From NCBI GenBank assembly GCA_947258795.1, contig CAMYJU010000005.1, forward strand, positions 1 to 64,000: a stretch of DNA of 64,000 nucleotides. Reading direction: 5' to 3'. The notes beneath the pieces were generated by a model that was given only the letters and a program-made list of their open reading frames with translations, was not told the DNA's origin and ran no database searches. A program made the translations under genes and the position numbers. This DNA comes from an uncultured Gammaproteobacteria bacterium (GTDB lineage Bacteria > Pseudomonadota > Gammaproteobacteria > DRJJ01). Positions 8,462 through 30,061 of this stretch are shown here, in pieces. Positions within the stretch are counted from its first letter, which is position 1. Every line of letters starts with the position of its first letter.

Positions 8462-8935
8462 ATGACCGTACTCAATATTAATAACAATAAGCACCAGATC
8501 GATGCCAATGATGATATGCCTCTGCTCTGGGCGCTGAGAGATATCCTCGGCCTGACTGGAACCAAATACAGCTGCGGCTCGGGATACTGCGGTACCTGTA
8601 CCGTCATTGTAGATGGTTTAGCCCAAAGGGCCTGCATGCTGCCACTCAACAGTCTGGTGGGTAAACAGATCATCACCATCGAGGGCCTCTCAAGTGATTC
8701 ACTACATCCAGTACAACAGGCCTGGCTGGATGAGAATGTAAGTCAGTGTGGCTATTGCCAGACAGGACAGATCATGGCCGCTGTCGCACTGCTAAATGAA
8801 ATCCCAGACCCGGATGACCAGCAGATCGACAGGGCCATGGCCGGGCAACTTTGCCGATGCGGAACCTATCAACGTATCAGAAAGGCGATTCACCTGGCCT
8901 CATCGATGATGAAGACCAGCCAGGATGAAAAATAA
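8462..8935 (+). CDS. Molybdenum hydroxylase [2Fe-2S] subunit (IorA/xanthine dehydrogenase small-subunit type)
   Basis: A 157-residue iron-sulfur subunit. The N-terminal plant-type ferredoxin cluster is bound by Cys38, 43, 46 and 58 (C-x4-C-x2-C-x11-C), and the C-terminal helical domain supplies the second cluster through QCGYCQ (Cys96, 99) and LCRCGTY (Cys131, 133). It passes electrons out of the molybdopterin subunit encoded next. The pair resembles isoquinoline 1-oxidoreductase and periplasmic aldehyde dehydrogenases. There is no Tat signal, so it would have to be carried out folded with the large subunit, as known for this family. The ATG lacks an obvious ribosome-binding site. It is divergent from the ACP operon. 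Confidence 0.9.
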
Positions 8936-12090: not shown

Positions 12091-12951
12091 TCACACCTCA
12101 AATCCAAGCTGGGTAACTTCAGAGATTTGCCTGTCGTTGAACAACCTGATATTCCTGTTTTTATATCTTCCTGTTGATGTTGGCTTTGAGAGATTAACCA
12201 GGCGACGGCATTCCTCGTCGGTTGTCTTGATATCCAGAAATTCGAGCAGCCTTTCCAGCTCAGGCTCGGGATTTTGGCAATATTCATCATAATTCAGCAA
12301 GTAGAAGTTGGAACCCAGGCTGTTACGGGCTGTCTCAATTGCCTGTTTATTACTGCGAATCCAGTATTCCAGTTGCATGTAGGGGATATTATCCTTCTCC
12401 AGATTGACACTCAAATCGTAACGATAGCCCCAGTATCTGAGCTGTTGTGTATTTGTACTAAAAGCCATATCCAGACCATGCCTGATAACATGTATGTATT
12501 TCATGTTCGGAAAGTAGTCAACCAGTTCCTGCAGAAACAAATGACTGATCGGCTCCTTCCAGCCCCAACGCGTCAGTTGATGCTTCCCTGAACACCAGTT
12601 TTGGGTAAACGCATGAATCAGCTCCTTTCTTCTACCCGACTTGATTGTCGACTTCCGGTACAGTGCTGTTATATACCTTATGATATCGGTCAGTGACCAG
12701 CCTTCCCCTGTCATACGCCTGGTAAACATGGATAGATAACGATCAAAATTCTCACGTCCTGTCGTTCTGATCCAGTCGGGCCTCTGGAATATTCGGGTAA
12801 ACAGCAGACTGTCATTCTGCTCGTCGATCTCGTCTCCCAGATAATATCCCAACTCCATCAGGGTCTGCGCTATCAGGCGTGTACCACTACCACCTAATGC
12901 ACCTATGACCACAGGATCTTTTTTTAACAATTTTGTTTCAGACATTTCCAT
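12091..12951 (-). CDS. PAPS-dependent sulfotransferase
   Basis: A 286-residue cytoplasmic sulfotransferase. The 5-prime phosphosulfate loop is GALGGSGTRLIAQTLMELGY near residue 18, and the 3-prime phosphate-binding segment is YIHVIRHGLDMAFSTN near residue 155. It would move sulfate from PAPS to a hydroxyl or amine. The gene starts 22 bases after the PKS/NRPS stop, so it is almost certainly in the same transcript and acts on the assembled product or a carrier-bound intermediate. It is separate from the sulfotransferase domain fused in the 953-aa NRPS. Start ATG at 12951, or the third codon at 12945. Confidence 0.75.
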   Translation of the reverse strand: MEMSETKLLKKDPVVIGALGGSGTRLIAQTLMELGYYLGDEIDEQNDSLLFTRIFQRPDWIRTTGRENFDRYLSMFTRRMTGEGWSLTDIIRYITALYRKSTIKSGRRKELIHAFTQNWCSGKHQLTRWGWKEPISHLFLQELVDYFPNMKYIHVIRHGLDMAFSTNTQQLRYWGYRYDLSVNLEKDNIPYMQLEYWIRSNKQAIETARNSLGSNFYLLNYDEYCQNPEPELERLLEFLDIKTTDEECRRLVNLSKPTSTGRYKNRNIRLFNDRQISEVTQLGFEV

Positions 12952-12973: not shown

Positions 12974-15900
12974 TTAGTTAAACAGGCGCTTGATCAGTTT
13001 ACTCATACTGCCTATCACTGATGATTTCCTGACATCCCTGGTTTGTACTGGTTGCTCTTCGCTCACATTCAAACCTGCCGCAATGTCGACCAACGGATAT
13101 AACACCAGATCCATCAAGGTGATATTGCTCTGCAATTCACTTCTAACCTGGTTAATAACCTGCATGGCCAACAGCGAATGCCCACCGATTTCAAAGAAAT
13201 TATCGCTTGACCTGATGCTGTCGATATATAACAGCGATTTCCATATTTCTGCCAGCTTCGTTTCCTCTGGCGACAGGGATTCAATCGCTTCTTCTGCAAT
13301 ACGGCTTTCCCCGAATGGCTCAGGCAGTTTTTTTCGGTCTATTTTCCCATTGGGTGTCTTCGGTACTTCCGCAAGTTCTATAAAAATCTGCGGTAACATG
13401 TACTTGGGCAGTGACTGGTTAAGATAGGATCGCAGGTCTGTCGAGGTCAGTGAGGCTTCATGTACAGGCACATAATAAGCCACCAGGCGACTATCTCCGG
13501 CACGTACCTCATGGATGGCCACAACACTTTCCTGTATGGCATCATGCTGATTCAGAATGGATTCGATTTCACCCAGTTCAATACGGTAACCACGGATCTT
13601 GACCTGGGAATCCAGGCGCCCATGAAATTCGATATTGCCATCCACCAGATACCTGGCTCCGTCACCCGTTCTGTAGAGTACGCTTTGTTCACTGGAAAAA
13701 GGATTCTGCACAAATCGCTCTTCGGTCAATTGCGGTCGATTCAGATAGCCTTTAGTGACACCTTCACCACCGATATACAACTCCCCGGGTACTCCCCATG
13801 GGGCCGGCTGCAGCGTCTGATCAAGGATATAGATCTGCGTATTGCCAATCGGCTTGCCAATGTGGACCGGGGCTGCAGGATCTTCTATCTGACAACAGGT
13901 AGACCATACGGTGGTCTCGGTCGGTCCATACATATTCCAGACACTGGCGGCCCTGCTACACAAATCACCAACCAGGTCGGCCGGCATCGCCTCCCCGCCA
14001 CACAGTATCTTCAGCTTGTCAGAACCCAGCCAGCCTGATCCGATCAGCATACGCCAGGTCCCCGGCGTCGCCTGCATGACGGTTGGCTGGTATTCCGCCA
14101 TCCGCTGTGACAATCGTATTCCATCCGATGACTCTTCGGCATCAACTATAAATACGGATGCGCCTGATATTAATGGTAAATACAGTTCCAGTACGGCAAT
14201 ATCAAATGACAGGGTCGTAATCGCCATCAGCCTGTCTTGATCACTCATCCCGGGTTGTTCCTGCATCGTGCACAGGAAATTAACTACACCCCGGTGTGGC
14301 ACCATGACACCCTTGGGTTTACCGGTCGAACCGGAAGTATAGATGATATAAGCCAGATCTTCCGGGGTGACATCCACTTCACCAGTCAGTTCGGAACTAC
14401 TGGCAGTTATAGCAGCCTGGTCCGTATCCAGGTTAATGAGCTGCAGGCCCTCGACGGGCAGACCTTCCAGAGACTGGCTATCAGCCACCAGATATTGCAG
14501 ACCGGAGTCCTCGACCATGAAATGCAGACGATCTTCCGGAAATTCCGGATCCAGCGGTACATAAGCGGCACCGGTTTTGAGTATTGCCAGTAAGGCAACC
14601 ACCATATCAACCGAACGTGTAACCGATAACCCGACCAGCGAGCGAACTTCAACTCCCTGCTTCTGTAAATAATGTGCCAACTGGCTGGAACGCTGTTCCA
14701 GCTCCTGATAACTGAGCTGATGACTGGTATCCGATACGGCAATGCTGTCAGCTCTGATCTTTACCTGCTCACTGACCAGATGATGCATGCATTGTTCTTT
14801 CGGATAGGCACGCCCGGTCCGGTTCCAGTCGTCCAGCAAATTGTGCCGCTCGGATTCTGTCAACAAGCCCAGCCTGGACAGGCTGCTATCCTGCTGCGCA
14901 AGAATTGATTCCAGCAAGTTGACATACAACGCCTGCCAATGCTCAATCGTCTGCTGATCAAACAGACTCTTGTTGTAGGTGCATTCCAGGTTGATATGCT
15001 CCTGATCCAGCAGCACATTGAAGAACAATTCAAATGTTTCAAAATGTCGGGGGTTTGAACCCTGGGTTATGTCGAGATTCTCGAAGTGTATACCACTGGC
15101 CAACTGGTCGATATTGAACACGACCGAGATTAACGGCAGGCGCGCAGGATCATGAGGAAACTCCAGATCGCCGACTACCGTTCCGTAGGTGCACAACTGA
15201 TGCTCAAACGACTCCAGCACTGTCGACTGGGTCGCTGTCAGCATCTCACTAAACGACTGCTTGCCATCGATCTCGATGCGCAAGGGCAGGAAATTCACAC
15301 AATGTCCGACCAGATCACGGCCACCGACCAGGGTTTGACCGGCAGCCGAAATACCGACATTAAATTCCGACTGGTAACTGAGACGATGTATCAGCACATT
15401 AAATACTGACAGCAGCAGACTGAATAAGGTTACTTTTCTACTCGATGCCAGCTGCCGTATGCGGGTCGCCAGGGTATCATCCAGGCGTTGCACTACCCTG
15501 TCTGCCTGATGGGTCTTTAATGGTGGTCGGGTATAGTCCAGCGGCAAATCAAGTGCCGGTGCCATATCAGCATGCTTGTCAACCCAGAAATGCCTGTCCA
15601 GTTCACGCTGTTGCTGCTGTTCTTCCTGGCATAACCACTGAGCATACTCCCTGAATTGCATCGGCTCTGGCGGCAGCTCACCGGTAAGCTGTGCACTGTA
15701 TAGCCGTCCGAGATCAGTTAACAGTGCGCCGGATGACCAGCCATCACAGGCGATATGATGAACCCCCAGAAACAGCACATGCGCCTGTTCAGACAATCGA
15801 TACAGACATAGCCTGTATAATGGACCATTTTCAAGGTCATAGGCTGTTTCCACATCCTTGTCAGCGTCTGCATGCAAACGTGCCTGTTGTGCCTCAGGTG

Positions 15901-18900
15901 ACAGGGTTTGCATATCAATACAGCGAACTTCCAGCTTATCAAGATGTGCACCGTAACGCGCCTTCCCTTCCTGACTGACAGTCAGACGCAAGGAGTCATG
16001 ACGGTTAATCATCAGCAGCAGGGCGTGATCCAGAATTTGTTTATCGAGCGTACCGGTCAGTTGTAATGTATTGGACAGGTTGTAGGCACACGATGCATTC
16101 TCTCCCAGGCAACAGGACAGCCAGACTTCCATTTGCCCATCGGTCAGGAACTGTTCTGCCGTCATTACAGCAGACGCCGGTATCATAGCTTCTGGCCGGG
16201 CAGTAGACGGCAGGAAACCACCCTGTTGCAGTGCTGCGACACTTTCTATAATAGCCAGTTTGACTGCTTCAAAATCCTGATCTGTATGTGCCGTTGAGAA
16301 GAACGATGAACGGCCTTCGGTAATATGGATACCCTTGTCCCGCAAATGATAATAAAGCAGGGTTGAATATTCCGGATGGCTGGTAAACTTGATATGGAAA
16401 AATGAACTGAAGGTCTCCACATGCAGCGGGGCGCCCATATTCATAAAGGCGTCATTCAGATCCTCAACAAACCGCTTCGTCCTGTTATTAAGCTGCTGTT
16501 GCAAGCCGGGACCCTGTTCACGCAAGTGCAGCAGTACCGCGCGGCAGGCAGCCAACGCCAATGGATGCCTGACAAAGGTACCTGCAAACCAGGTCACACC
16601 GGCTTCGGGTATGGAACCGTCACCGAACTGCCACATCCCCCCATCGAGGGCATCCAGATAACGATGATCTCCACTGACGATACCAATCGGCAGCCCACCA
16701 CCAACCACCTTGCCATAGGTCGCAATATCCGCCTTGACATCGAACAGGGCCTGCACCCCTCCCGGATGTGAACGAAATCCGGTGATCATTTCATCAAGCA
16801 CCAGTGCAATATCCAGCTCTCTGGTAAGCGTCCTGAGTTCTTTCAGGAAACTGACCGGCTGCGTGTCCGGGTGACGACTCTGTACCGGTTCAACCAGAAC
16901 TGCCGCAATGTCTCCGGCCTGTTCCCTGATTACCTCCAACGCGTGATTGTCGCCATATTCCAGTACCAGTACCTGTTCAACCATGTGCGGCAGAATACCT
17001 GGCGCCACCGGTATCGGACGTGCGCGATCACCCATGCTCAAACGCTTGACCAGCACCTCATCAAATATACCGTGGTAGGAGCCGGCAAAAATCACAATCT
17101 TGTCCCGTCCGGTCACGGTTCTCGCGACCCGAATCGCGGCCAGTACGGCCTCTGAACCGGTATTACAGAATGCCATACGCTCCATGCCGGTCATTTCACA
17201 GAACAGGCTGGCAGCCTCTCCGGCCAGTGGCGTTTGCGGGCCGATCTCATAGCCTTTGTGTAATTGCTCCTGAACAGCTGCACTGATAAATGCGGGTGTA
17301 TGGCCAAACAGGTTGACACCAAAACCCATGGCCATATCGATATACTCATTGCCATCGATATCCCATAGTCGGGAACCCGCAGACCGTTCTGCAACAACCG
17401 GATAGGCAATTTCTTTCCACAGCTTTCGAAAACCTGAAACAGTACGGGCGTCAGCGAGCTGTTTCCTGTTGGACTGAACCAACTCCCTGGAGGCCCTGGT
17501 CTTGCCGACGATACTTTCGATTAATGTATCCAGGTGTTTTTGTTGCTGCGCAGTCAGCCCTGAGCTGGCGCCGGTATCGATAGCCTTCCACGGCCCGGTC
17601 GTGATTTCAGGCTCATCGGTAGCCATTAACTCGCTGGCAGTGACCGCATGTTCTGATGTTGCTTCAGTCCCGGTCACAGGCTGTGCCAGCACTCCGCTGC
17701 CGGGCACCTGTTCAGCCTGGTTCTCCCTGATATAGTCTGTCAGGGCCGCCAGGTTTCCGAACTCCTCCATAACCTGTCTAAAGGTAATATTGACTGAAAA
17801 GCGTTTTTTTAATGCCAGGCTGACCTGGGTCAGCGCCAGTGAGTCGAACCCCAGTTCCAGAAAAGAAACATTGGGCCTGATCTGACCGGCTGACAGACCG
17901 CTAAGTTCAACCAGGATGTTTTTCAGCTCCTGCTCTATCGATGATTCGGTATCTGCCGATGCAGGCCCGGCCGAATCGGGCTGCTGTGTTGCATCCGAAA
18001 CCTCCGGGTATAACTGGTGGATGGTAGCCTTATGATGAGGTTTGCTTTCCCCCTCTATCCAGTAGCGCGTACGCTCGAATGCATAACCAGGGACTGAAAC
18101 ATGCTTGCGCTGTTCGTACTGGTAGTACTGGTCCCAGTCGACCTGCCCCCCTGCCGACCAGAGTTGACCGAGTGCGGATACCAGGCATGCCTGATCGTCG
18201 ATTTGCTCTTTTGGATACCGGATACTGTTGATCACGGCATGCGTGTCTTTAACCAGAGGATGCTGCCTGACAAAATTACACAAGGTCCTGCCCGGCCCCA
18301 TTTCGATAAAGCAGGCATTCTCTCTTTCCAGCAGTACCGCAAGCCCATCATAGAACCTTACGGTTTGGCGTAAGTGTTTTGACCAGTAGGCCGGATCAGT
18401 CGCCTGTTTATCGGTAATCCAGTCACCGGTCAGGTTAGATATAAACGGTATTTCAGGACGTGAAGGATTCGCAGACCTGGCCAGTTGTTCAAAGGGCTCC
18501 AGCGCAGCATCCATCATCGCGGAATGGAATGCATGTGAGGTTCGTAACTCCTGGTAACCTACCGATTGCTGTTGCAGGGTTTCCTGCAAGGCCTGCACAG
18601 ACTTGTGCGGTCCGGATACCACCGTCGCATTATTAGTATTGACGGTGGCGATCGAAATATCTACCGGCAACAGTCCAGACAGCTCATGTTCGGGCAGGGA
18701 AACCGCCAGCATACTGCCCGTGGACTGCTGCTGCATCAAACGTCCCCGTTCGGCCGCCAGCCTCAAGGCCTGCTCCAGGGTAAATACACCACTCAGACAG
18801 GCTGCCACATACTCACCGATACTGTGCCCGATCATTGCTGCAGGCTGTATACCCCAGCTCTGCCATAAACGCGACATCGCATATTCCGTTACGAACAGCG

Positions 18901-20698
18901 CGGGCTGGGTATATTGTGTCTGCTGCAATTGCTCGGCTGCCTGCTGCTCCTCGCCCGGCTGCGGATACATCAGTTGACGTATATCGGCTTCCAGTATGTC
19001 TTTCAGGAACAGCGCACAACTGTCTACCTGTTCACGGAAAACCGGTTCCGATTCGTACAGGCCACGGGCCATATTGGAATACTGTGCACCCTGACCTGAA
19101 AACATGAATATATGATCATCGCACACGGCATCCTGACGGCTTACAGCAGACCAGCTATCCTGCTGTGACAGACTGGTGTCACTCGCCTCACTGGAATTCC
19201 TGACCACCGCATAACTGCGACAGGTATAGGATTGACGATGCTGCTGCAGGGTATAGGCCACATCAGCCACTGACAGATCGGTGTTCGAACCCAGGTGTCT
19301 GCTCAGCTGTTGCTGTGCATCAGACAGCGACTGCTCGGTCCTGGCTGACAGCGGAATCAGTTGCCATGCCCTGCTGTCAGATGACGCACGGGTATCCGTC
19401 CAGCCTTCCAGTATGGCATGGAAGTTCGTACCACCCAGACCGAACGAACTGACACCGGCAAGGCGCTGTTGCTTGTCTTCCGGCCAGGAGGACATCTTGT
19501 CATTGACATAAAACGGGCTATTGTCGAAATCGATTTGCGGATTGGGACGCTTGTAATTAAGCGATGCCGGTATTTGACCATATTTCAGTGCCAGGGTGGT
19601 CTTGATCAGACCGGCGATACTGGCTCCGGCATCAAGATGACCGATATTGGTCTTGACCGAACCAATCGGGCAGTAGGCCTTCTTGTCCGTATATTCGCGG
19701 TAGGCCCTGGTCAGGGCAGCGATTTCTATCGGGTCACCAAGCGCTGTACCGGTACCATGTGCTTCGATATAACCCATATCTTCAATATTGATGTCTGCCA
19801 GTGACAGGGCATCACCAATCACGGCAGCCTGACCTTTCAGACCCGGTGCGGTAAACCCGATCTTGTCCGAACCGTCATTATTGATCGCGGTAGCGCGAAT
19901 CACTGCATGGATACTATCTCCATCAGTAATGGCGTCTTCCAGTGGTTTGAGTACGATGAAGCCCATACCACTACCCCGAACCATGCCCTTGGCATCAGCA
20001 TCAAAAGCACGACAGTATCCATCCGGTGACTGGGTTCCACCTTCCTGGTAATGGTAGCCACTTTGTAACGGCACCTGGATACGTCCACCACCAGCCAGTG
20101 CAACCTGGCAGTCCCCGGCCAGCAGACTCTGACAGGCAAGATGTACTGCAACACCGGATGAGGAACAGGCAGTCTGCACATCGATAGCAGGGCCGGTCAG
20201 ATTGAGCTTGAACGCCACACGTGTCGCAATATAGTCTTTCTCACTGCTTAACATGCTTTGATAGTCATCAAAGGCATGCAGCATTTCCGGATTGGCCGCA
20301 AACCGGTCGAGGATATAGGTATTACGGGCAACACCGCCAAACACGCCAACCTGAGCACCTTCCTGTCCGCTTACTATACCTGCGTCTTCGAGTGCCGCAC
20401 TGGCACACTCCAGGAAAATACGATGCTGAGGATCCATCAGCGCCGCTTCGCGCGGATTGTAGCCGAAGAATGATGCGTCAAAACAGTCTGCATCATCCAG
20501 CCAGGCGCCGGCCTTCACGTAATCCGGGTCACCAAGGGTTTCGATATCGATACCGGCCGCGATCAATTCATCGCGACTGAAGTGATGGATCGCAGACTGA
20601 CCTGAATGCAACAGCTCCCAGAACTGCTCAACAGAGTTAGCCCCCGGAAATCTGCATGCCATGCCGATGATGGCTATTTTGTCGGTCAAATCATCCAT
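12974..20698 (-). CDS. Hybrid PKS-NRPS: KS-AT-ACP-aminotransferase-C-A(Gly-like)-PCP
   Basis: A 2574-residue assembly-line protein. KS (about 5-430): active Cys178 in TACSSS, His314 in EAHGTGT, His354 in NIGHLDAG. AT (about 530-830): Ser626 in GHSIGEY and the HAFH motif at 722-725, typical of malonyl-CoA selection. ACP: Ser953 in ELGFDSL. Class III PLP aminotransferase (about 1060-1490): Lys1330 in ATYGKVVGGG, as in mycosubtilin and iturin synthases, where it turns a beta-keto thioester into a beta-amino acyl unit. C domain: HHIACDG at 1647-1653. A domain (about 1965-2480): deduced ten-residue code DILQLGMVWK, near the published Gly code. PCP: Ser2508 in GGHSLL. No ketoreductase, dehydratase or thioesterase is present. 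The C-terminus is a short amphipathic tail ending KLIKRLFN. It begins 23 bases after the A-PCP-sulfotransferase gene. Confidence 0.95.
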   Translation of the reverse strand: MDDLTDKIAIIGMACRFPGANSVEQFWELLHSGQSAIHHFSRDELIAAGIDIETLGDPDYVKAGAWLDDADCFDASFFGYNPREAALMDPQHRIFLECASAALEDAGIVSGQEGAQVGVFGGVARNTYILDRFAANPEMLHAFDDYQSMLSSEKDYIATRVAFKLNLTGPAIDVQTACSSSGVAVHLACQSLLAGDCQVALAGGGRIQVPLQSGYHYQEGGTQSPDGYCRAFDADAKGMVRGSGMGFIVLKPLEDAITDGDSIHAVIRATAINNDGSDKIGFTAPGLKGQAAVIGDALSLADINIEDMGYIEAHGTGTALGDPIEIAALTRAYREYTDKKAYCPIGSVKTNIGHLDAGASIAGLIKTTLALKYGQIPASLNYKRPNPQIDFDNSPFYVNDKMSSWPEDKQQRLAGVSSFGLGGTNFHAILEGWTDTRASSDSRAWQLIPLSARTEQSLSDAQQQLSRHLGSNTDLSVADVAYTLQQHRQSYTCRSYAVVRNSSEASDTSLSQQDSWSAVSRQDAVCDDHIFMFSGQGAQYSNMARGLYESEPVFREQVDSCALFLKDILEADIRQLMYPQPGEEQQAAEQLQQTQYTQPALFVTEYAMSRLWQSWGIQPAAMIGHSIGEYVAACLSGVFTLEQALRLAAERGRLMQQQSTGSMLAVSLPEHELSGLLPVDISIATVNTNNATVVSGPHKSVQALQETLQQQSVGYQELRTSHAFHSAMMDAALEPFEQLARSANPSRPEIPFISNLTGDWITDKQATDPAYWSKHLRQTVRFYDGLAVLLERENACFIEMGPGRTLCNFVRQHPLVKDTHAVINSIRYPKEQIDDQACLVSALGQLWSAGGQVDWDQYYQYEQRKHVSVPGYAFERTRYWIEGESKPHHKATIHQLYPEVSDATQQPDSAGPASADTESSIEQELKNILVELSGLSAGQIRPNVSFLELGFDSLALTQVSLALKKRFSVNITFRQVMEEFGNLAALTDYIRENQAEQVPGSGVLAQPVTGTEATSEHAVTASELMATDEPEITTGPWKAIDTGASSGLTAQQQKHLDTLIESIVGKTRASRELVQSNRKQLADARTVSGFRKLWKEIAYPVVAERSAGSRLWDIDGNEYIDMAMGFGVNLFGHTPAFISAAVQEQLHKGYEIGPQTPLAGEAASLFCEMTGMERMAFCNTGSEAVLAAIRVARTVTGRDKIVIFAGSYHGIFDEVLVKRLSMGDRARPIPVAPGILPHMVEQVLVLEYGDNHALEVIREQAGDIAAVLVEPVQSRHPDTQPVSFLKELRTLTRELDIALVLDEMITGFRSHPGGVQALFDVKADIATYGKVVGGGLPIGIVSGDHRYLDALDGGMWQFGDGSIPEAGVTWFAGTFVRHPLALAACRAVLLHLREQGPGLQQQLNNRTKRFVEDLNDAFMNMGAPLHVETFSSFFHIKFTSHPEYSTLLYYHLRDKGIHITEGRSSFFSTAHTDQDFEAVKLAIIESVAALQQGGFLPSTARPEAMIPASAVMTAEQFLTDGQMEVWLSCCLGENASCAYNLSNTLQLTGTLDKQILDHALLLMINRHDSLRLTVSQEGKARYGAHLDKLEVRCIDMQTLSPEAQQARLHADADKDVETAYDLENGPLYRLCLYRLSEQAHVLFLGVHHIACDGWSSGALLTDLGRLYSAQLTGELPPEPMQFREYAQWLCQEEQQQQRELDRHFWVDKHADMAPALDLPLDYTRPPLKTHQADRVVQRLDDTLATRIRQLASSRKVTLFSLLLSVFNVLIHRLSYQSEFNVGISAAGQTLVGGRDLVGHCVNFLPLRIEIDGKQSFSEMLTATQSTVLESFEHQLCTYGTVVGDLEFPHDPARLPLISVVFNIDQLASGIHFENLDITQGSNPRHFETFELFFNVLLDQEHINLECTYNKSLFDQQTIEHWQALYVNLLESILAQQDSSLSRLGLLTESERHNLLDDWNRTGRAYPKEQCMHHLVSEQVKIRADSIAVSDTSHQLSYQELEQRSSQLAHYLQKQGVEVRSLVGLSVTRSVDMVVALLAILKTGAAYVPLDPEFPEDRLHFMVEDSGLQYLVADSQSLEGLPVEGLQLINLDTDQAAITASSSELTGEVDVTPEDLAYIIYTSGSTGKPKGVMVPHRGVVNFLCTMQEQPGMSDQDRLMAITTLSFDIAVLELYLPLISGASVFIVDAEESSDGIRLSQRMAEYQPTVMQATPGTWRMLIGSGWLGSDKLKILCGGEAMPADLVGDLCSRAASVWNMYGPTETTVWSTCCQIEDPAAPVHIGKPIGNTQIYILDQTLQPAPWGVPGELYIGGEGVTKGYLNRPQLTEERFVQNPFSSEQSVLYRTGDGARYLVDGNIEFHGRLDSQVKIRGYRIELGEIESILNQHDAIQESVVAIHEVRAGDSRLVAYYVPVHEASLTSTDLRSYLNQSLPKYMLPQIFIELAEVPKTPNGKIDRKKLPEPFGESRIAEEAIESLSPEETKLAEIWKSLLYIDSIRSSDNFFEIGGHSLLAMQVINQVRSELQSNITLMDLVLYPLVDIAAGLNVSEEQPVQTRDVRKSSVIGSMSKLIKRLFN

Positions 20699-20721: not shown

Positions 20722-23583
20722 CTACTTGTTCTGCTTACGTTGCCGGCGGTTACTCAATGCAGATCGGCGTTTTCCGGATTTGGCTGCCATCCTGGCCTGC
20801 CCTGCCGGTTGATTATATCCCAGTCTGACAGCCAGGTCCCATGTTGGTTCGCTTAAAAAATCATCGTTTTCAACACCCTGCCAGGCCTCAGCTACCTTCG
20901 GATTAATGGCCTTGTGTGCCAGCAGGTTGGTATCCCCCATCGGGATCGATACCTTGTGCAAACCATCAACCATCTTGCCCTGTATACCATCATACGGATT
21001 AACCAGGTTTTCATGATAACCGAGCCCCAGGGTCTGACATAGCCTACCCATTTCAGCGGCAGGATCATTGAGCATGTCCTCAAAACGCGTACGAAACCAC
21101 CGGTCCTCAGGTATCGTCTCCAGAAAGTTGACGATATTTCTGTGGGTAATCAGCCACACCAGTTCACCCAGCCTCCTCGGGCTAAAGGGTTGCTCACGCA
21201 AATACAGCACCTGCTCCATGTGGTAACGAACAAATGAATTTACCATCGCATAGGGATGGCGAACCAGGTGAATATACAGGGGCTTGTCAAAATCCTGCTC
21301 GGCCTTCTCCAGCGAGCGCATATCCAGACCATAAGACGGTGATTTGTCGACCAGCATCTGCTCGCCCAGCCAGCCCTGCAACTCGGCAAAAAACGCCTGA
21401 GTACTCAGGTTCCTGTCCTCGAAGTCAGACATAATCGCGGTGGCCTGATCCGCATCGCAGGACTTGATCTCCATAATCGCCCTAATAGTGCCTTCCCGCC
21501 ACAATTTGTATTTCCCGGAATACGCCTGTTTGCGTTCCTGCAAGGTATTAAAACCCAGTAACTGCAACTCGGCCGCTGCGAACAGATCAGGATGCCCGGC
21601 CAGCATAACCCTGAGCAGGGTGGTACCTGATCTGGGTGGCGCCAGGATAAAAATAGCCGGCGGATTTTTCCTGACAGCTTGTGTTTGTATCTGCTCCGGC
21701 AACATCACAATACAGGATTCCATGCGCTCGATATCGTTATTAGTCAGCTTGTCAGATACATTACTTTCACTGCCTGCATGAGCCGCGTCGCTTGCTGTTC
21801 CTGCAAACCTTTTCTTTACCGCGTCAGTGTAGTCTCTTTCAAGAAACCGGGCATAACTGGACACGGTAGGCGATTCAAATATGGTCAACACATAGATGAA
21901 TTCGCCGAGATCTTTTTGCAACTGACCAATAATGGCTGCTGCCTGTAACGATGTACCACCCAGATCAAAGAACCGGTCATTGATACCAACCTGCTCCAGC
22001 TCCAGCTCTTCCTGCCATAAATACACCAGGTGCTTTTCAATATCCGTCGTCGGTGTAACATATGCCTGATCCAGCACCGGTCTTTCCCTGCCGGGTCTGG
22101 GCAAGGCCTTGCGATCCAGCTTCCCGCTCACGGTCAGGGGCAGGCTGTCCATCAGCATGAACACCGATGGAACCATATGTTCGGGTAGACTCTCTTCAAC
22201 AAAGGTACGAACATCAGTAAGCGAGAATTCTGCTCCGGGATTCAGTACCAGATAAGCGACCAGTTTCTGGTTACCGGGTTTATCCTCTCTGAGCAACACC
22301 ACTGCCTGCTTTATCGAAGGATGTTTTTCAAGGTGCAGCTCGATTTCCCCGAGCTCTGTTCTGATGCCGCGGATTTTTACCTGGAAGTCTATACGCCCGA
22401 GAAACTCAACCGCACCGTTATCGCGTTTACGACCGATATCACCTGTTCGATACAGTCGCTGCCCCGGTGCTGCCGGATCCTCAACAAAACGCTCGGCTGT
22501 CAGCTCCGGACGATTCAGGTAACCACGCGCCACCTGGACCCCGCCTATACAGATCTCGCCTGCCTCGCCATCCGGGAGCGGACTTAGACTGTCATCCAGA
22601 ATCAGGATACTGGTGTTTGCGACTGGCCAGCCGATCGGGACCGTTTCTTCGTGATTACCACGCACACATTCCCACCAGGTCACATCAATCGCAGCCTCGG
22701 TCGGACCGTAAAGGTTATGCAGCTGCGCATCCAGTGTCTCGAAGAAGCAGTCACGCAGATCCGGTAGTAATGCCTCACCACTACAGATGACATGACGCAG
22801 GGATCGACAACTTGTTGCCAGCCCCGGTTCGTCCAGAAACAGGCGCAGCATGGATGGAACAAAATGCACGATACTGACCGATTCCTGTTCGATCAGCTTG
22901 GACATATAGGTACTGTCTTTATGACCGTCCGGACGCGCCAGCACCATGCTGGCACCGGTCATGATCGGCCAGAAAAACTCCCAGACAGAGACATCAAAGC
23001 TGTAAGGGGTCTTCTGCAGGATTCTGTCTGATGCATCGGCCTGGAAATGATCCTGCATCCATTGCAAGCGGTTACAGATACCCTGATGGGTATTCATAAC
23101 CCCCTTGGGCATACCGGTTGAGCCCGAGGTATAGATCACATAGGCGAGATCATCCGGCTGGATATCTGGCACAGTCAGCTCTGCTGAAAAAGATATTATC
23201 GCCTGCCAGTCGCTGTCGACACTAATGAGGTTATGCCTTGATGAAGATAAATCCGGCCTCAAGCTTTCCTGGGTCAATACACAAACCGGGTCTGCATCAC
23301 CCAGCATCACTGACAGTCTTTCTTCCGGGTATTCGGTATCGAGCGGGATATAGGCTGCACCGGCCTTCAGTATCGCCAGCAAGGCGACGACCATTTCCGG
23401 GGCGCGATGCATATACAGGGCAACCAGGCTGCCCTTATCCACACCCTGCTTGCATAAATAGGCAGCCAACTGTGTGGCCCGGCGATTGAGGTCTTCGTAT
23501 GAGAGCGCTTGACCGTCATAGATAACGGCTGGGTGATCCGGTGTGCGCGCTGCCTGCTGTTCAAATAATCCGTGTAATAGCAT
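20722..23583 (-). CDS. NRPS: A(Ser-like)-PCP-sulfotransferase
   Basis: A 953-residue protein that starts directly in an adenylation domain, with no condensation domain. A domain (1-495): YTSGSTGMPKG near 151, YGPTEAA near 292; the deduced code DVWHISLIDK differs by one residue from the published Ser code. PCP: Ser545 in DLGGTSLQ. A PAPS sulfotransferase domain follows (about 643-905) with APPRSGTTLLRVMLAGHP and HLVRHPYAMVNSF, closely resembling the CurM/olefin-synthase sulfotransferases that activate a beta-hydroxyl on a carrier-bound chain. The likely reaction is O-sulfonation of carrier-bound serine. Unlike CurM there is no thioesterase after it. The protein ends in a very basic tail (SGKRRSALSNRRQRKQNK). 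A 126-base gap separates it from the upstream NRPS gene. Confidence 0.93.
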   Translation of the reverse strand: MLLHGLFEQQAARTPDHPAVIYDGQALSYEDLNRRATQLAAYLCKQGVDKGSLVALYMHRAPEMVVALLAILKAGAAYIPLDTEYPEERLSVMLGDADPVCVLTQESLRPDLSSSRHNLISVDSDWQAIISFSAELTVPDIQPDDLAYVIYTSGSTGMPKGVMNTHQGICNRLQWMQDHFQADASDRILQKTPYSFDVSVWEFFWPIMTGASMVLARPDGHKDSTYMSKLIEQESVSIVHFVPSMLRLFLDEPGLATSCRSLRHVICSGEALLPDLRDCFFETLDAQLHNLYGPTEAAIDVTWWECVRGNHEETVPIGWPVANTSILILDDSLSPLPDGEAGEICIGGVQVARGYLNRPELTAERFVEDPAAPGQRLYRTGDIGRKRDNGAVEFLGRIDFQVKIRGIRTELGEIELHLEKHPSIKQAVVLLREDKPGNQKLVAYLVLNPGAEFSLTDVRTFVEESLPEHMVPSVFMLMDSLPLTVSGKLDRKALPRPGRERPVLDQAYVTPTTDIEKHLVYLWQEELELEQVGINDRFFDLGGTSLQAAAIIGQLQKDLGEFIYVLTIFESPTVSSYARFLERDYTDAVKKRFAGTASDAAHAGSESNVSDKLTNNDIERMESCIVMLPEQIQTQAVRKNPPAIFILAPPRSGTTLLRVMLAGHPDLFAAAELQLLGFNTLQERKQAYSGKYKLWREGTIRAIMEIKSCDADQATAIMSDFEDRNLSTQAFFAELQGWLGEQMLVDKSPSYGLDMRSLEKAEQDFDKPLYIHLVRHPYAMVNSFVRYHMEQVLYLREQPFSPRRLGELVWLITHRNIVNFLETIPEDRWFRTRFEDMLNDPAAEMGRLCQTLGLGYHENLVNPYDGIQGKMVDGLHKVSIPMGDTNLLAHKAINPKVAEAWQGVENDDFLSEPTWDLAVRLGYNQPAGQARMAAKSGKRRSALSNRRQRKQNK

Positions 23584-23709: not shown

Positions 23710-26700
23710 TCAGTTATTCCTCAGTTTACCTAACCACTTGGCCAGCATGGATTTTTCCTGTTTACCGGTCACTTTTTGCTCCATCAGTTTATCGCATTCC
23801 CTGGCAACTGCTTTCAAGTCTTCCTGGTAGATCGTAACCGCACTTAGATTGACTCCAAGCGTTTCACGTATCGTGGCCAGGGCCTGCATGGCCAGGATCG
23901 AATGACCACCGATAATGATAAAATTGTCGTCACGACTGACCCCATCGACCCCGACCAGTTCAGACCAGATCGCGGCCAGTACCTGCTCGGTTTCCGTCTC
24001 AGGTGGAATTATATCCCGGGAGGCGGTATCCACGGTTAACGGGGATGGCAGACGGTTACGATCCACTTTCCGGTTCGGCGTCAGTGGAAACTCACCCAGT
24101 TCCACAAAATGTTGCGGAATCATGTGATCAGGCAGTATTTCCCGTAGCGAGTTTCTCAGGCTGGTCGCGGTAGCCTGTGTCCCGGCACGAGACCTGTAAT
24201 AGGCCACCAGTCTTGGGGCATCTCCCTGCTGGGTATAAAGACTGGTAACCGCCTGCTCAACAGACGGATCCTGTTCCAGTGCCGAATCGATCTCGCCCAG
24301 TTCTATGCGGAAACCACGCAGCTTGACCTGATGATCCATCCTGCCCATGCAGATGAGCTGGCCGCTCTCACCGAGACATCCATAGTCACCGGTACGGTAA
24401 AGCCGCTGCTTGCCGACTCCTGGAATATCAAGCTCGACAAATCGCTGCCCGGTCAATTCAGGCCGGTTCAAATAGCCTCTTACCACCCCGTCTCCGGCGA
24501 TACATATCTCGCCCCGAATACCGGCAGGAACCGGTCGTAGCCGCTGGTCCAGTATATAGATCCGGGTATTGGCAAGTGGTTTACCTACCGGTATCTGCTT
24601 CTGCTCCTGCTTTACCTGGTAACTGCTGGACCAGATGGTGGTTTCAGTTGGACCATACATGTTGATCAGGGAAGTGGTATGGACCAGCTCACGGGCCAGG
24701 TTTTCTGTCATGCTTTCTCCGCCTATCAAAACATTTTTGATGCGGGAAAAAATAGCCGATGTTTGTGCATCCGCCAGCAGCATACCGGCCATCGAGGGTG
24801 TACATTGAAAATGGGTGACCTGGTATTTATCCACCAACGCAGGTAATGACATGGAAGCCTTGCTCTGCTCAGCGACCTTTTCTGCAACCAGTTGTTTAAG
24901 CTCATTCAGGTATGGCAGGTTCTCCAGTACCACGTCGGTATTAACACCATAATCAATCAAGCAGGCTATCTCATCAACACCGGCCTGATTGACCCGGCTG
25001 ATCATATCCAGACAATCCTCAGGCGAGCCGAACAAACCACTGGTACTGAAATAACGTTCGAATGCAAATTCAAGCAGATCATCGAGATCGGCATCCGAAA
25101 TAGCTTCGAAGTATTCATCCAGTGACTCACCCGTTTCCTCTGATGTTGCCTTGAATGTCGGGAAGTTCCACGCTGCTTTCTTGACCAGGAACATGGCGCT
25201 GGCCAGATATTTTTTCATCGGCGCCCTGGCAATTTCCTTTGCCTTTTCTGTAGAAGTACTGACCAGTGTGTGCAGCATCACCACCACATGGCCCTGCCCC
25301 GGATGCCCACATTGCCTCCAGGTACTCCGGTACAGTTCCAGTTTTTCTGCCAGCTCTTCTATCGTCTGACCAAGCAGATGGGTCAATATACCCGCACCTG
25401 CTTCGGCGGCCTTGACGAATGTTTCCGGGTTGCCGGCAACAGTCGCCCATACCGGCAACTCCTTCTGCACAGGCCGTGGCAAGGTGGATACCGTTACATC
25501 CCCCTTTGGACCAGGTAGAACCAGTGTTTCACCTTTCCATAAACGACGAAGTTGCTCGAGCGATTCAAACAGGATGGTTTTGGCATTGGTAAAGTTTTCG
25601 GGTTTGATCACAAAGTCCTCGGGTTGCCAGCCCGAAGCTACTGCCATACCGACACGACCATCAGACAGGTTATCCACTACCGCCCATTCCTCTGCGACAC
25701 GCACCGGATTATGCAGTGGTAGCACACAACTACCGGCCCTGATTTTTACATTTTTTGTGGCCACCGCCAGCGCAGCACTGGTGACAGACGGATTCGGGAA
25801 CAAGCCACCAAAATCGTGGAAATGACGTTCCGGTGTCCACACAGCGGTAAATCCGTTTTCATCGCCATATTTCGCACTTTCCAGTAACAGGCGATACTTG
25901 TTTTCGTTGCCCTGATCATCCGGGACCAGGTTCCAGTAAAACAGACTGAAATCAACCGGTCTGATGGCAGGCTTACTGTCAGGAACTTCATACCTTTCGG
26001 GTTCAACATAAAGCACAACTGTGAATCCACGTGTCAGTGTCCAGAACAACTCCAGTACCGAAATATCGAAGGAAATACTGGTTACCGCCAGCCAGGTACC
26101 CGGTTCGGGATGCTCCAGCACATCATCCATACCCGAAAAGAAATTCACAACATTGGCCTGCTCGACCACCACACCTTTGGGCTGACCTGTCGAGCCCGAT
26201 GTATAGATAACATAGGCCGCATTGGATGCATCAGTATCAAGCTCGGGATTCTCACTGCTGCACTGCTCGATCTGATCCAGGTCCTTTCTGTAGTTCACCA
26301 GTTCAAAATCTGCTTTTGTATCCCCCAACAGACTGTCGTCGTCGCTGATCACCACCTTCGATCCGGAATCCTCGACCATATACTGTATCCGGTGCCCTGG
26401 ATAGGCCGGGTCCAGTGGTACGTAGGCGCCCCCTGCCTTCAGGGTTGCCAGCAAGGCGATCATCATCTCAGTAGAGCGTTTCATATGTATGCCCACCAGC
26501 TGTTCCGGACCGACACCCTTGCCGATCAGATAGTGGGCCAGGCGATTGGCGCGCCTGTTTAGCTCCGCATAACTCAGTTCATCCTGGCCACACACCAACG
26601 CCAGCTGGTCAGGCGTTTTGGCTACCTGCCCGGCAAACAATTGTTGAATACCTTGCCTGTAGTCAACCTGCTTGCCTGTTGCATTCCAGTCAATCAGCAG

Positions 26701-28371
26701 GGACTGGATATCTTTCTGATCCAGCAGATTGACATCACATAGCAGCCTGTCCCGCCTGGGTAAATCCGAAACCAGCTGCCGAAATTGCTGCTGCATGATC
26801 TCGATCTGCCGGGCAGTATGCACATCAGCATGATAAAACCATTCCAGCCCGCTGAAATCATGCGCCGGGCGTATATACAATGCGGCAGATACTGCCGGTA
26901 TTTCATCCTGACCCGGTTCACCGGGGACAGCCAGAACAACCGGGAAAAGCCTGTCATCGGTATAGTAAGGTAAACTCCTGAGCTCAGGAGTACGTAAAGG
27001 CAAATCCGAGGCGAAGACGAGGTGCGTCTGAACTTCCCGGTACCCTGCCTCAATCATCCGGCAATGATCAGCAAACCCGGTTTCTGAATTAACATCATGG
27101 ATGAACGGGATACAAGTCTGATACAGATTGTGGTTCTTGCTTTCATGCAGCGCACTTACATCCAACACAAGGCCTGTGCTTTCATTACCGGTAAGACGGT
27201 ATAGATAGGCAAGCACAGCCGCCAGGAATGCAGGCATCATATCCAGACATTGCCTACCCGACAGTCCGGACAGTTCAGGCAGGTCCTGATGCCCTGCCCG
27301 GATCAGTGACTTGTTATCGACTGCCTGGCTGTCTCGTACATACGGCAGCGTTGTAAGCTGAAGCTCAGTCAGGTGCCTGATCCAAAAGGCCTCTTGCAAA
27401 CAGAAGTCTCTCCTGGTCTGCAACCCCTTCTCCAGAAGGGCCTCCTGGCCGGTATCCAGGCTATCACCAATATTCACGCCCGCGGCAGATAAAAATGCCC
27501 CTGGCTTTAACTCGCGAACTGACTGATCTGGCAAAACTGACAGACTGATATCCCTGGTCGCCGTACTGAACACAATGTTGCTGTCTGAATACGATACCAG
27601 CGTACCGGCAGGCATATTCGAAGATTGCTCGAGTACATCGGCCTGCCTGACAATCAATTGCCGATCATTGACCGGCAGTCGGGCAAGCCCGACCGGGTTG
27701 TAATAAGGCCCAAATTCCAGGGCACGTGTCAGTGCAGATATGGCTTCGGCCGGGCCGGACAGATCGATACCCAGTGACATTTCCTTGCAGGGAGGGCAAT
27801 AGCTAGCCTCATCCAATTGGTGCGCAACCGGTGATATTTTATCATTTTCGATATCATTCAGCAGTTCATTGAAGCAAGCCAGCCCCTGTTCAAGGCATTT
27901 GATATTCAGGCTGAAGGCGGTTTCATCAGTCGCAATCGGAAAGGTGTGTTGCTTGATTATATCGCCCGCATCTGCCTGCTCTGTCATCTGATGCCAGGTG
28001 ACACCATACTCAGCTTCCTGGTTCAGGATTGCCCAGACAGGTGCATTAATACCTGCATACCTTGGTAAAGGGCCATCATGAAAATTAATGGCCATACGAG
28101 CCGGTAACTTCAGGACCTCTGCCGGTATGATTTTCAGATTGACGATACTGAATAGATAATCGAATTGATACTTGTCCAGGTCTGCATAAGAACTACTTGT
28201 ATGTTCACGGTATTCCAGGGAATGCTCATTACACCAGGCTGCAACATCCGGGTCACTGGAGATGACCAGGCTGATGGTATGATCACGATCGAGCAGCTGT
28301 TGACCACACTCAATCAATAGTGACTGCTGACCAATTAATACGCAATTGAATTGTTTGCTGCTCGCGGACAT
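23710..28371 (-). CDS. NRPS: formyltransferase - half C domain - A(Gly-like) with inserted luciferase-like monooxygenase - PCP
   Basis: A 1553-residue protein. Residues 8-190 are a formyltransferase catalytic domain with INFHDGPLPRYAGINAP near 95, and 205-305 look like its C-terminal OB-fold domain. Residues 325-555 resemble only the C-terminal half of a condensation domain; no HHxxxDG is present. The adenylation domain spans 575-1440: YTSGSTGQPKG near 723 and SFDISVLELFW (A4) near 767, then a MupA/Atu3671-type flavin monooxygenase (about 798-1165), then the domain resumes at YQVTHFQCTPSMA and MYGPTETTIW (A5). The code DILQLGMIWK is Gly-like. PCP: Ser1492 region, IGGHSIL. An insertion at this site is known in MtaG and MelG, where it oxidises glycine. 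The tail ends KWLGKLRNN. Confidence 0.93.
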   Translation of the reverse strand: MSASSKQFNCVLIGQQSLLIECGQQLLDRDHTISLVISSDPDVAAWCNEHSLEYREHTSSSYADLDKYQFDYLFSIVNLKIIPAEVLKLPARMAINFHDGPLPRYAGINAPVWAILNQEAEYGVTWHQMTEQADAGDIIKQHTFPIATDETAFSLNIKCLEQGLACFNELLNDIENDKISPVAHQLDEASYCPPCKEMSLGIDLSGPAEAISALTRALEFGPYYNPVGLARLPVNDRQLIVRQADVLEQSSNMPAGTLVSYSDSNIVFSTATRDISLSVLPDQSVRELKPGAFLSAAGVNIGDSLDTGQEALLEKGLQTRRDFCLQEAFWIRHLTELQLTTLPYVRDSQAVDNKSLIRAGHQDLPELSGLSGRQCLDMMPAFLAAVLAYLYRLTGNESTGLVLDVSALHESKNHNLYQTCIPFIHDVNSETGFADHCRMIEAGYREVQTHLVFASDLPLRTPELRSLPYYTDDRLFPVVLAVPGEPGQDEIPAVSAALYIRPAHDFSGLEWFYHADVHTARQIEIMQQQFRQLVSDLPRRDRLLCDVNLLDQKDIQSLLIDWNATGKQVDYRQGIQQLFAGQVAKTPDQLALVCGQDELSYAELNRRANRLAHYLIGKGVGPEQLVGIHMKRSTEMMIALLATLKAGGAYVPLDPAYPGHRIQYMVEDSGSKVVISDDDSLLGDTKADFELVNYRKDLDQIEQCSSENPELDTDASNAAYVIYTSGSTGQPKGVVVEQANVVNFFSGMDDVLEHPEPGTWLAVTSISFDISVLELFWTLTRGFTVVLYVEPERYEVPDSKPAIRPVDFSLFYWNLVPDDQGNENKYRLLLESAKYGDENGFTAVWTPERHFHDFGGLFPNPSVTSAALAVATKNVKIRAGSCVLPLHNPVRVAEEWAVVDNLSDGRVGMAVASGWQPEDFVIKPENFTNAKTILFESLEQLRRLWKGETLVLPGPKGDVTVSTLPRPVQKELPVWATVAGNPETFVKAAEAGAGILTHLLGQTIEELAEKLELYRSTWRQCGHPGQGHVVVMLHTLVSTSTEKAKEIARAPMKKYLASAMFLVKKAAWNFPTFKATSEETGESLDEYFEAISDADLDDLLEFAFERYFSTSGLFGSPEDCLDMISRVNQAGVDEIACLIDYGVNTDVVLENLPYLNELKQLVAEKVAEQSKASMSLPALVDKYQVTHFQCTPSMAGMLLADAQTSAIFSRIKNVLIGGESMTENLARELVHTTSLINMYGPTETTIWSSSYQVKQEQKQIPVGKPLANTRIYILDQRLRPVPAGIRGEICIAGDGVVRGYLNRPELTGQRFVELDIPGVGKQRLYRTGDYGCLGESGQLICMGRMDHQVKLRGFRIELGEIDSALEQDPSVEQAVTSLYTQQGDAPRLVAYYRSRAGTQATATSLRNSLREILPDHMIPQHFVELGEFPLTPNRKVDRNRLPSPLTVDTASRDIIPPETETEQVLAAIWSELVGVDGVSRDDNFIIIGGHSILAMQALATIRETLGVNLSAVTIYQEDLKAVARECDKLMEQKVTGKQEKSMLAKWLGKLRNN

Positions 28372-28386
28372 CGTTGTTACCCGTGA

Positions 28387-29277
28387 TTAGCGAACGTCAT
28401 GTTCTAAACGCTGTTGTCCATATGAGTTCTCCAGCCACTGCCTGATACGGGCCGTCAATAACTCGCGTTGTGATAAAAAAGTATAGGTGTGATCCGACAA
28501 CCTGTACAACTCAACATCAAGCAAATCCTCAAAATCCAGTGTAGGGAAACTGTCCCGAATCTGCCCCGGATAATTGATCATCCATAATTCCGAAGCCGTA
28601 AACAGAAACAGCATATGGACCTTGCGACTGATCAGTTCAGCATAATCCTTTATGGCTACATTTTTGTCCGGCAATTTCCAGAAATAACTGTCATCTGCTT
28701 CCGGACCACTTATCACCTGTTTTCGTGGTTTCAGTTTTCTTAGCCACTTTTTGATAAAGTTCTTCCATTTTCCGGCAATAAAAAGTTTACCACTGACTTT
28801 TTTCACCTTCTCCATCAGCTTGAGAAAATAGGTGTGACGGGTTGGATAGGCATACCCGCCCATAAACACACACCCGGTAACACGCTCATCGGCCACTGCG
28901 GCACGATGCGCATTGTCGGCACCGGTACAAAGCCCGATCAGTATGAATTTTTCCGATCCTTTCTGCTTCCCGAGAAAATCCATTGCCTCCTTGATCTCGC
29001 CAACAGCTCGTTCCTGATAACTCGGGTTGGCTTTTCTTGTCTGACTGTCACCGATGGCAGACAGATCAAACCTGAGTACCGTATAACCCTGGTCAGCTAT
29101 GTCCCTGGCCATTTCCACAGCCAGCCTGTGCGGGCCAACATGATGAATCAGGCCGGAATTAAGGATAATGACCGTAGGCAAACCCTGCTTTTGCTGACTG
29201 GCTTCCGGTTCAGTGACTACCCCAACCAGTGAATTTCCCATGCCGAATGTATAGACCTTTTCCACATCAGCCCCCAT
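28387..29277 (-). CDS. Alpha/beta hydrolase with Cys at the nucleophile elbow
   Basis: A 296-residue alpha/beta hydrolase-fold protein. The oxyanion-side motif is NSGLIHHVGPHRL near residue 41, and the nucleophile elbow reads LIGLCTGADNA, placing Cys117 where Ser normally sits. A candidate catalytic His lies in LSDHTYTF near the C-terminus. Cys-type thioesterases are known in some NRPS systems, so this free enzyme is a candidate for product release or editing, given that no assembly-line protein has a thioesterase domain. Paired hydrolases of this size also accompany exosortase-A loci. The frame is open to a TTG at 29295, but ATG 29277 is preferred; it overlaps the preceding hydrolase by 11 bases. 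The NRPS start follows after 15 bases. Confidence 0.8.
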   Translation of the reverse strand: MGADVEKVYTFGMGNSLVGVVTEPEASQQKQGLPTVIILNSGLIHHVGPHRLAVEMARDIADQGYTVLRFDLSAIGDSQTRKANPSYQERAVGEIKEAMDFLGKQKGSEKFILIGLCTGADNAHRAAVADERVTGCVFMGGYAYPTRHTYFLKLMEKVKKVSGKLFIAGKWKNFIKKWLRKLKPRKQVISGPEADDSYFWKLPDKNVAIKDYAELISRKVHMLFLFTASELWMINYPGQIRDSFPTLDFEDLLDVELYRLSDHTYTFLSQRELLTARIRQWLENSYGQQRLEHDVR

Positions 29278-30061
29278 CAGCAAGAAATGTTGCAATACTT
29301 TGTAACAATACCGGAGATATCAGTGCCAGCTTCAGTGATTCGACACCATGCCAGACATCGTCATTCGGGACATAGTTACAGACTACTGGCAGATTCTTTT
29401 GTTGCATATTTTCCAGCAGGCTCTTGTAAACAGGCTTTTCTTCCGTAATAGTCAAACTGATGCTGCTAGCCTGCATGATTACGTTGTTCAGCTTCACACC
29501 CGATATGGATTCAAGTACCGCATCCGGAAAGTGAAACCCGAAGAACTCGTTGCCTGTATGAGGCATTTCCGTGATAGAGTGATTGATTCGGTCTCTATGC
29601 TGTTCCAGCAATGCCTGCTCCATATCCATCATATCCTGCACATAGGCCTCGCCATCAGTCACCGGATCCCAAAGTACCAGCTTGTTCAGCCTGGTTTCTG
29701 ATGATGCCAGTGCCGCCAGTGCGGCCCCGAAGCGCACCCCGATGACCGACAGCCGGGAAACAGCAGACATATCCTTTAACTCGGTAAGTGCGGTCTTGAT
29801 ATCCTGCAGCCACTGACTAACATCCCCTTCATCGGTCCGGCCTGCTGAGTTTCCGGATCCATAGTAATCAAACCGCAGCACATGGAATCCAAGGCTGGTC
29901 AATCTGCCGGTTAACTGGGTCAGCACGCGATGAGTACGGATATACTCCTCACCGGTTGGGTAACAGATCAGCACCGCTTCATCACGGTATTGTTGTGCGG
30001 CAGGTGGATGGTATACGCCGTAAAGCTGCTTATTGGTATCACCAAAAAAAAACGGATTCAT
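29267..30061 (-). CDS. Alpha/beta hydrolase-fold protein with Arg at the nucleophile elbow
   Basis: A 264-residue alpha/beta hydrolase-fold protein, first gene of the natural-product operon. The core strand and oxyanion region LICYPTGEEYIRTHR and the following LRFDYYGSGNSAG are well kept, but the elbow reads SVIGVRFGAALAA, so Arg110 occupies the nucleophile position. It may be non-catalytic, act as a partner of the Cys-elbow paralogue that overlaps its 3-prime end, or use another residue. The third to sixth codons form a run of nine T on the coding strand (FFF), where slippage could occur. A 12-base palindrome lies just upstream of its start, and a purine-rich GGGGAG serves as ribosome-binding site. 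Confidence 0.75.
   Translation of the reverse strand: MNPFFFGDTNKQLYGVYHPPAAQQYRDEAVLICYPTGEEYIRTHRVLTQLTGRLTSLGFHVLRFDYYGSGNSAGRTDEGDVSQWLQDIKTALTELKDMSAVSRLSVIGVRFGAALAALASSETRLNKLVLWDPVTDGEAYVQDMMDMEQALLEQHRDRINHSITEMPHTGNEFFGFHFPDAVLESISGVKLNNVIMQASSISLTITEEKPVYKSLLENMQQKNLPVVCNYVPNDDVWHGVESLKLALISPVLLQSIATFLADGG

Follow-up and report, generated by a model that had tools for sequence, protein, structure and literature searches.

MtaG and MelG, of the myxothiazol and melithiazol pathways, are known for an oxygenase that interrupts a glycine adenylation (A) domain between motifs A4 and A5 (PMC10204066). In these terminators the chain is condensed onto glycine, the glycyl residue is then hydroxylated at its alpha carbon by the monooxygenase (MOX) within the A domain, and the thioesterase (TE) that follows removes glyoxylate to give an amide (PMC10204066). 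SolF, of the solanimycin pathway, also carries a flavin monooxygenase within a glycine A domain and hydroxylates the glycyl alpha carbon, but its insert lies between a8 and a9 of an internal module, and the product contains alpha-hydroxyglycine (PMC10204066). The OX domain of PuwE (PDB accession code: 6KET) is a luciferase-like monooxygenase (LLM) that lies outside any A domain, with an aminotransferase on one side and an NRPS module on the other, where it is proposed to alpha-hydroxylate beta-aminoacyl units (PMC4219810). At the start of other assembly lines, a formyltransferase (FT) followed by a glycine A domain and a peptidyl carrier protein (PCP) has been proposed as the chain starter in conglobatin (CongA) and oxazolomycin, passing formylglycine, which becomes an oxazole, to a ketosynthase (KS); that account describes no oxygenase insert and mentions no condensation-like (C-like) linker in these starters (PMC4504003).

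We consider here an NRPS protein (protein 1) encoded in a stretch of 64,000 nucleotides from an uncultured gammaproteobacterium, the whole of which we call the window. As in MtaG and MelG, a glycine A domain is interrupted between A4 and A5 by an LLM-type oxygenase; unlike them, protein 1 has an FT and a degenerate C-like linker, lacks a TE and stands in an initiating position. With the conglobatin and oxazolomycin starters it shares the formyltransferase, the predicted glycine loading and the KS that it would feed. The kind of interruption is thus already known; it stands here in another functional position than the first-pass annotation of the window had proposed.

Domain order and the oxygenase insert

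Protein 1 is a single uninterrupted open reading frame of 1553 residues on the reverse strand (28371-23710), with the order FT, C-like linker, first part of the A domain, LLM, second part of the A domain, PCP; the coordinates that follow are on the same strand. The first part of the A domain (residues 575-788, 26008-26649) holds A1 to A4, with the A4 motif FDISVLELFW at 26041-26070. The second part (residues 1175-1450, 24022-24849) holds A5 to A10 and the rest of the glycine code, and the PCP with Ser1491 in a GGHS motif (23782-24009) follows. Pfam likewise splits the AMP-binding domain, with its first half at residues 580-793, Bac_luciferase at 816-1134 and then the remainder.

The NCBIfam model TIGR04020 matches the insert over its whole length (positions 1-341 of 341; residues 808-1159, window 25950-24895) with E 1e-143 and 478.6 bits, against a cut-off of 244.45, which bears out the earlier assignment to the MupA/Atu3671-type monooxygenases. 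An alignment with two A domains of the operon that have no insert places the insertion at about residues 789-1174, between A4 (residue 768) and A5 (NMYGPTE, residue 1237), in the loop past the post-A4 strand and ahead of the helix that leads toward YQVTHFQCTPS. The break after A4 was therefore read correctly from the first, and the range first given for the insert, 24877-25980, is accurate and corresponds to residues 798-1165. To compare with MtaG and MelG we use as stand-ins myxobacterial C-A(LLM)-PCP-TE modules of their architecture, taken from genomes of the family of a Myxococcus record; in the alignment their insertion site is identical. The TIGR04020 score, together with the same layout in 84 of 84 homologues, excludes a chance arrangement.

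Does the insert leave the A fold intact? In a model of residues 566-1452 built from 37 sequences (mean pLDDT 85, pTM 0.58), the A core superposes across the insert on the TycA/PheA structures (Z 53.4, 387 aligned residues, rmsd 1.8, over model range 1-780). The LLM of the model matches the PuwE OX domain in a fold search (TMt 0.90, 47% identity), and the same structure, 6KET, is found by sequence with E 1e-106. Because of these two matches, both the A fold and the LLM fold are predicted to be intact, domain by domain, the overall pTM being 0.58. Across 119 LLM domains 65 residues are common to at least 95%, and protein 1 has no substitution at any residue conserved in at least 90% of them, its sole departure from the conserved positions being one inserted residue, G821. 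With its conserved residues kept, the insert is a putative FMN-dependent oxygenase.

In PheA numbering the substrate code is D769, I770, L773, Q1189, L1215, G1217, M1238, I1246, W1247 and K1435 (DILQLGMIWK), which predicts glycine as the substrate. Exactly this code is carried by all of four MOX-interrupted glycine-activating domains (PMC12283262), so that the earlier description of the code as close to glycine is upheld. The 84 FT-type homologues have DILQ[MFL]GMIWK with few exceptions, and DILQLGMVW, the code of the A domain without insert in protein 3, is also present in 6 of the 84 LLM-interrupted A domains.

The formyltransferase domain and the linker behind it

The N-terminal FT domain (residues 1-305, 27457-28371, Pfam PF00551) contains the catalytic residues N96, H98 and D134, which are kept in 84, 84 and 83 of the 84 homologues respectively, and its predicted fold is that of ArnA/FMT (Z 26.6, 291 residues, rmsd 3.0). 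Protein 1 also has sequence and fold matches to LgrA, the initiation module of linear gramicidin, which has a formyltransferase as well. LgrA loads valine, has no LLM, and has its F domain joined directly to the A domain.

In protein 1 the FT and the A domain are separated by some 260 residues of C-like linker (residues 306-565, 26677-27456). The HHxxxDG motif is absent from this linker and from all 84 FT-type homologues (0/84), and is present in the myxobacterial modules L139 and L141. Pfam Condensation has no match in the linker, and a sequence search of the PDB finds none for it; it weakly resembles the N-terminal region of the TIGR03443 model (positions 330-664). The matches listed by a fold search with a model of the FT and linker are formyltransferases, none of which classifies the linker. 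Judged by its sequence, condensation activity is not expected of it.

A Pfam domain search finds no TE in protein 1, whose C-terminal end is the PCP. The N-terminal FT, the missing HHxxxDG motif and the missing TE together give protein 1 the layout of an initiation module: an FT, then A and PCP without an active C motif. Most likely it is a starter module feeding a ketosynthase. These three features, which the first-pass annotation did not mention, change its interpretation. Of the products that it had suggested, an alpha-oxidised glycine, here perhaps N-formylated, stands as a reasonable proposal; the primary amide does not, as there is no upstream chain, C motif or TE.

Relatives, trees and the operon

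A genome scan with a query that held both FT and LLM gives at least 569 relatives. The sample of 84 used throughout, the best 80 of these plus four plasmid copies, is skewed towards the strongest matches; each of the 84 encodes FT and LLM in a single open reading frame. Their records are labelled Alphaproteobacteria, Burkholderiales, Gammaproteobacteria, Chloroflexi, Acidobacteria, Planctomycetes, Myxococcota, Gemmatimonadetes, Cyanobacteria and others, and hundreds of genomes, spread over many phyla, contain the FT-LLM module. The viral contigs searched contain no relatives of protein 1. NCBI names the relatives after their LLM, and the "MupA/Atu3671 family FMN-dependent luciferase-like monooxygenase" proteins of Aminobacter, Shinella, Aliiroseovarius, Ruegeria and others are full-length FT-C-like-A(LLM)-PCP proteins of about 40% identity. 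In the literature searched, we find no product described for an FT-LLM starter module, and nothing on Atu3671 or on a formyltransferase and a luciferase-like monooxygenase together.

The usual partner of these relatives is a PKS with the order KS-AT-KR-DH-ACP-TE, often with a phosphopantetheinyl transferase (PPTase) gene. Within the stretch in view, a KS-KR-DH type I PKS is present at 64 of the 84 loci, a PKS frame with a TE at 57/84 and a PPTase at 46/84. Of the 75 loci of at least 15 kb, 48 have glycosyltransferase or flippase genes from five common neighbour families close by, a count that has no control set beside it. In two loci, from records labelled Comamonas sp. KCTC 72670 (L032) and Myxococcus sp. 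CA023 (L033), the FT-LLM and PKS genes agree closely in arrangement and length; a label may be wrong, or the locus may have moved. Separately, the genomes of the family of a Myxococcus record (L104, L105, L121-L130 and others) contain many internal A(LLM)-C modules, with several LLM-containing genes per genome; in this family oxygenase-interrupted A domains are far commoner than MtaG and MelG alone.

In the tree of LLM domains, that of protein 1 pairs with one from Oleiphilus (L021; support 0.999) among the FT types, and the LLMs embedded in myxobacterial A domains form a clade nested within these. PuwE, whose OX domain is of the same kind and fold, is set apart with other LLMs that are not embedded in an A domain (0.965), so that the LLM of protein 1 does not group with the aminotransferase-linked OX domains. 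When the A cores are aligned with the insert left out, the FT-type and MtaG-like interrupted A domains fall together in a single clade (0.918), from which all sampled uninterrupted A domains, that of protein 3 included, are absent. The likeness first drawn to MtaG and MelG thus extends from the insertion site to the A domain itself, and the insertion is homologous with that of the MtaG-like modules; the simplest reading is that one insertion event lies behind both. The idea that the A domain of protein 3 is an interrupted one that has lost its insert is rejected, since it falls outside this clade. A KS tree with few outgroups and midpoint rooting joins the protein 3 KS to 64 partner KSs and to two that are encoded downstream of myxobacterial A(LLM) modules (0.993). 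Because the KS of the window groups with the partner KSs, protein 1 likely provides a polyketide starter unit.

The operon runs from two hydrolases through proteins 1, 2 and 3 to a sulfotransferase, with gaps of -29, 15, 126, 23 and 22 bp, and protein 1 is the first of its three synthases by gene order. Protein 2 (20722-23583, reverse strand) consists of an A domain, a PCP and a sulfotransferase, with no C domain. The code of its A domain is DVWHISLID, which is serine-like. Protein 3 (12974-20698, reverse strand) has the order KS-AT-ACP-aminotransferase-C-A-PCP, with HAFH (malonyl-type) in the AT, HHIACDG in the C domain and the near-glycine code DILQLGMVW. A stand-alone sulfotransferase (12091-12951, reverse strand) completes the operon. 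The window is unusual in these partners, which differ from the PKS of the Aminobacter and Ruegeria type of relative; within the stretch in view the set is found in 0 of the 84 relatives. Protein 2 could possibly sulfate its carrier-bound serine, perhaps on the way to dehydroalanine or to a sulfate ester. A few genomes of the class have related long frames that carry this sulfotransferase, and a further NRPS locus of the same genome (L149, contig C29) has a sulfotransferase gene.

The two alpha/beta hydrolases (28387-29295, 15 bp before protein 1, and 29267-30061, overlapping the first; both on the reverse strand) resemble the models of exosortase-A-associated hydrolases 1 and 2 (hydr1_PEP and hydr2_PEP) respectively, with scores below cut-off. 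They may serve as off-loading thioesterases for NRPS/PKS lines that have no TE. Homologues of the pair or of one member lie near the FT-LLM genes at four loci (L021, L031, L072 and L080), those of the first hydrolase being next to these genes in L021, L072 and L080. Elsewhere in this genome another PKS/NRPS locus (L148, contig C3, 4018-19986) ends in a similar pair, as in the window. A block of exopolysaccharide type at 31351-53041 contains Wzy-like, glycosyltransferase, nucleotidyltransferase, dehydratase, acyltransferase, amidotransferase, flippase, GNAT and sulfotransferase genes. Two asparagine-synthase-like amidotransferases (2291-4231 and 43910-45796, reverse strand) score below the cut-off of the XrtA/PEP-CTERM amidotransferase model, which they resemble, and a molybdenum hydroxylase pair (2Fe-2S and XdhA-like subunits; 8462-11078, forward strand) adjoins the operon on the opposite strand. 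A PP-loop cyclodehydratase like CongE, which would point to an oxazole, is rejected as a candidate here: the PP-loop protein encoded close by (5382-6371) proves to be an NAD synthase.

A proposed starter unit and its alternatives

We propose that protein 1 initiates a chain and hands a formylated, alpha-hydroxylated glycyl unit to the KS of protein 3, and we regard this scheme as a whole as somewhat more probable than not. The interrupted A domain, to go by its code, would load glycine onto its own PCP. By analogy with LgrA, whose F domain acts on a PCP-bound residue as cited in PMC4504003, and with CongA, the FT domain would formylate the glycyl amine. The embedded LLM, with FMNH2 and O2, would then hydroxylate the carrier-bound glycine at its alpha carbon; MtaG, MelG and PuwE offer the analogies that make alpha-oxidation at this stage a reasonable expectation. 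The KS tree and the gene order suggest that the N-formyl-alpha-hydroxyglycyl unit, or a glyoxylyl unit if formamide is lost, would pass to the KS of protein 3, where malonyl extension, transamination and a further condensation would follow. As there is no TE, release is assigned to the two hydrolases of the operon, which would probably carry it out. Some features count against the scheme: protein 2, which lacks a C domain, fits it at no clear place, the C-like linker between FT and A has no counterpart in LgrA, and the outgroups of the KS tree are few.

The next question is whether the formamide nitrogen is kept. Hydroxylated formylglycyl-PCP might lose formamide, so that a glyoxylyl thioester is delivered or glyoxylate is released, much as the hydroxylated glycyl of the Mta and Mel lines collapses to an amide and a glyoxylyl thioester (PMC10204066); insertion site, code and clade are all of the MtaG/MelG kind. 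SolF, however, retains its alpha-hydroxyglycine (PMC10204066), and in myxobacteria many A(LLM) modules lie inside the line, ahead of a C or KS domain; cleavage there would cost them the chain. A formyltransferase dedicated to the module is also easier to explain if the formyl group stays. Since internal modules precede C or KS and solanimycin B keeps its hydroxyglycine, we favour retention and consider a glyoxylyl starter unlikely.

The LLM might instead act further down the line, hydroxylating the beta-aminoacyl product of the KS-aminotransferase module of protein 3 at its alpha carbon. The KS-AT-ACP-aminotransferase order of that protein and the proposed role of the PuwE OX domain beside an aminotransferase (PMC4219810) speak for such a reaction, but the aminotransferase-linked LLMs form their separate clade, the majority of the family is partnered by KS-AT-KR-DH PKSs that have no aminotransferase, and the LLM sits inside a glycine A domain throughout the family. 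We think this improbable.

An LLM that is inactive and merely structural would leave a module that starts with N-formylglycine as in conglobatin, where FT-A(Gly)-PCP starters are described with no mention of an oxygenase insert (PMC4504003). The unbroken set of conserved LLM residues argues against it, as does the insert kept in 84 of 84 FT-type relatives, though the query that selected them contained the LLM, and we rate it very improbable. Primary-amide release, in which protein 1 would off-load a peptide or polyketide chain as MtaG and MelG do, agrees with the insertion site, the code and the LLM family, but is rejected as highly implausible for a protein with an N-terminal FT, no upstream chain, no active-site C motif and no TE, which gene order places first among three synthases.

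We return to the N-formyl-alpha-hydroxyglycyl starter. A tentative extension, to which we give a modest chance, well below even, is that it belongs to a widespread and undescribed biosynthetic line, in which this starter, a masked aldehyde, receives one or a few ketide units and is attached to, or used with, an exopolysaccharide; the variant in the window would add transamination and sulfation. A single protein of 1553 residues makes a concrete in vitro test of the proposed starter possible. If the proposal is right, insertion of an oxygenase at A4-A5, as two myxobacterial terminators are known to have it, would be widespread in starter modules too, and one insertion event would lie behind both uses. 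The starter unit, which is described in no paper that we find, would then be common to hundreds of genomes from many phyla and would often be encoded within exopolysaccharide loci.
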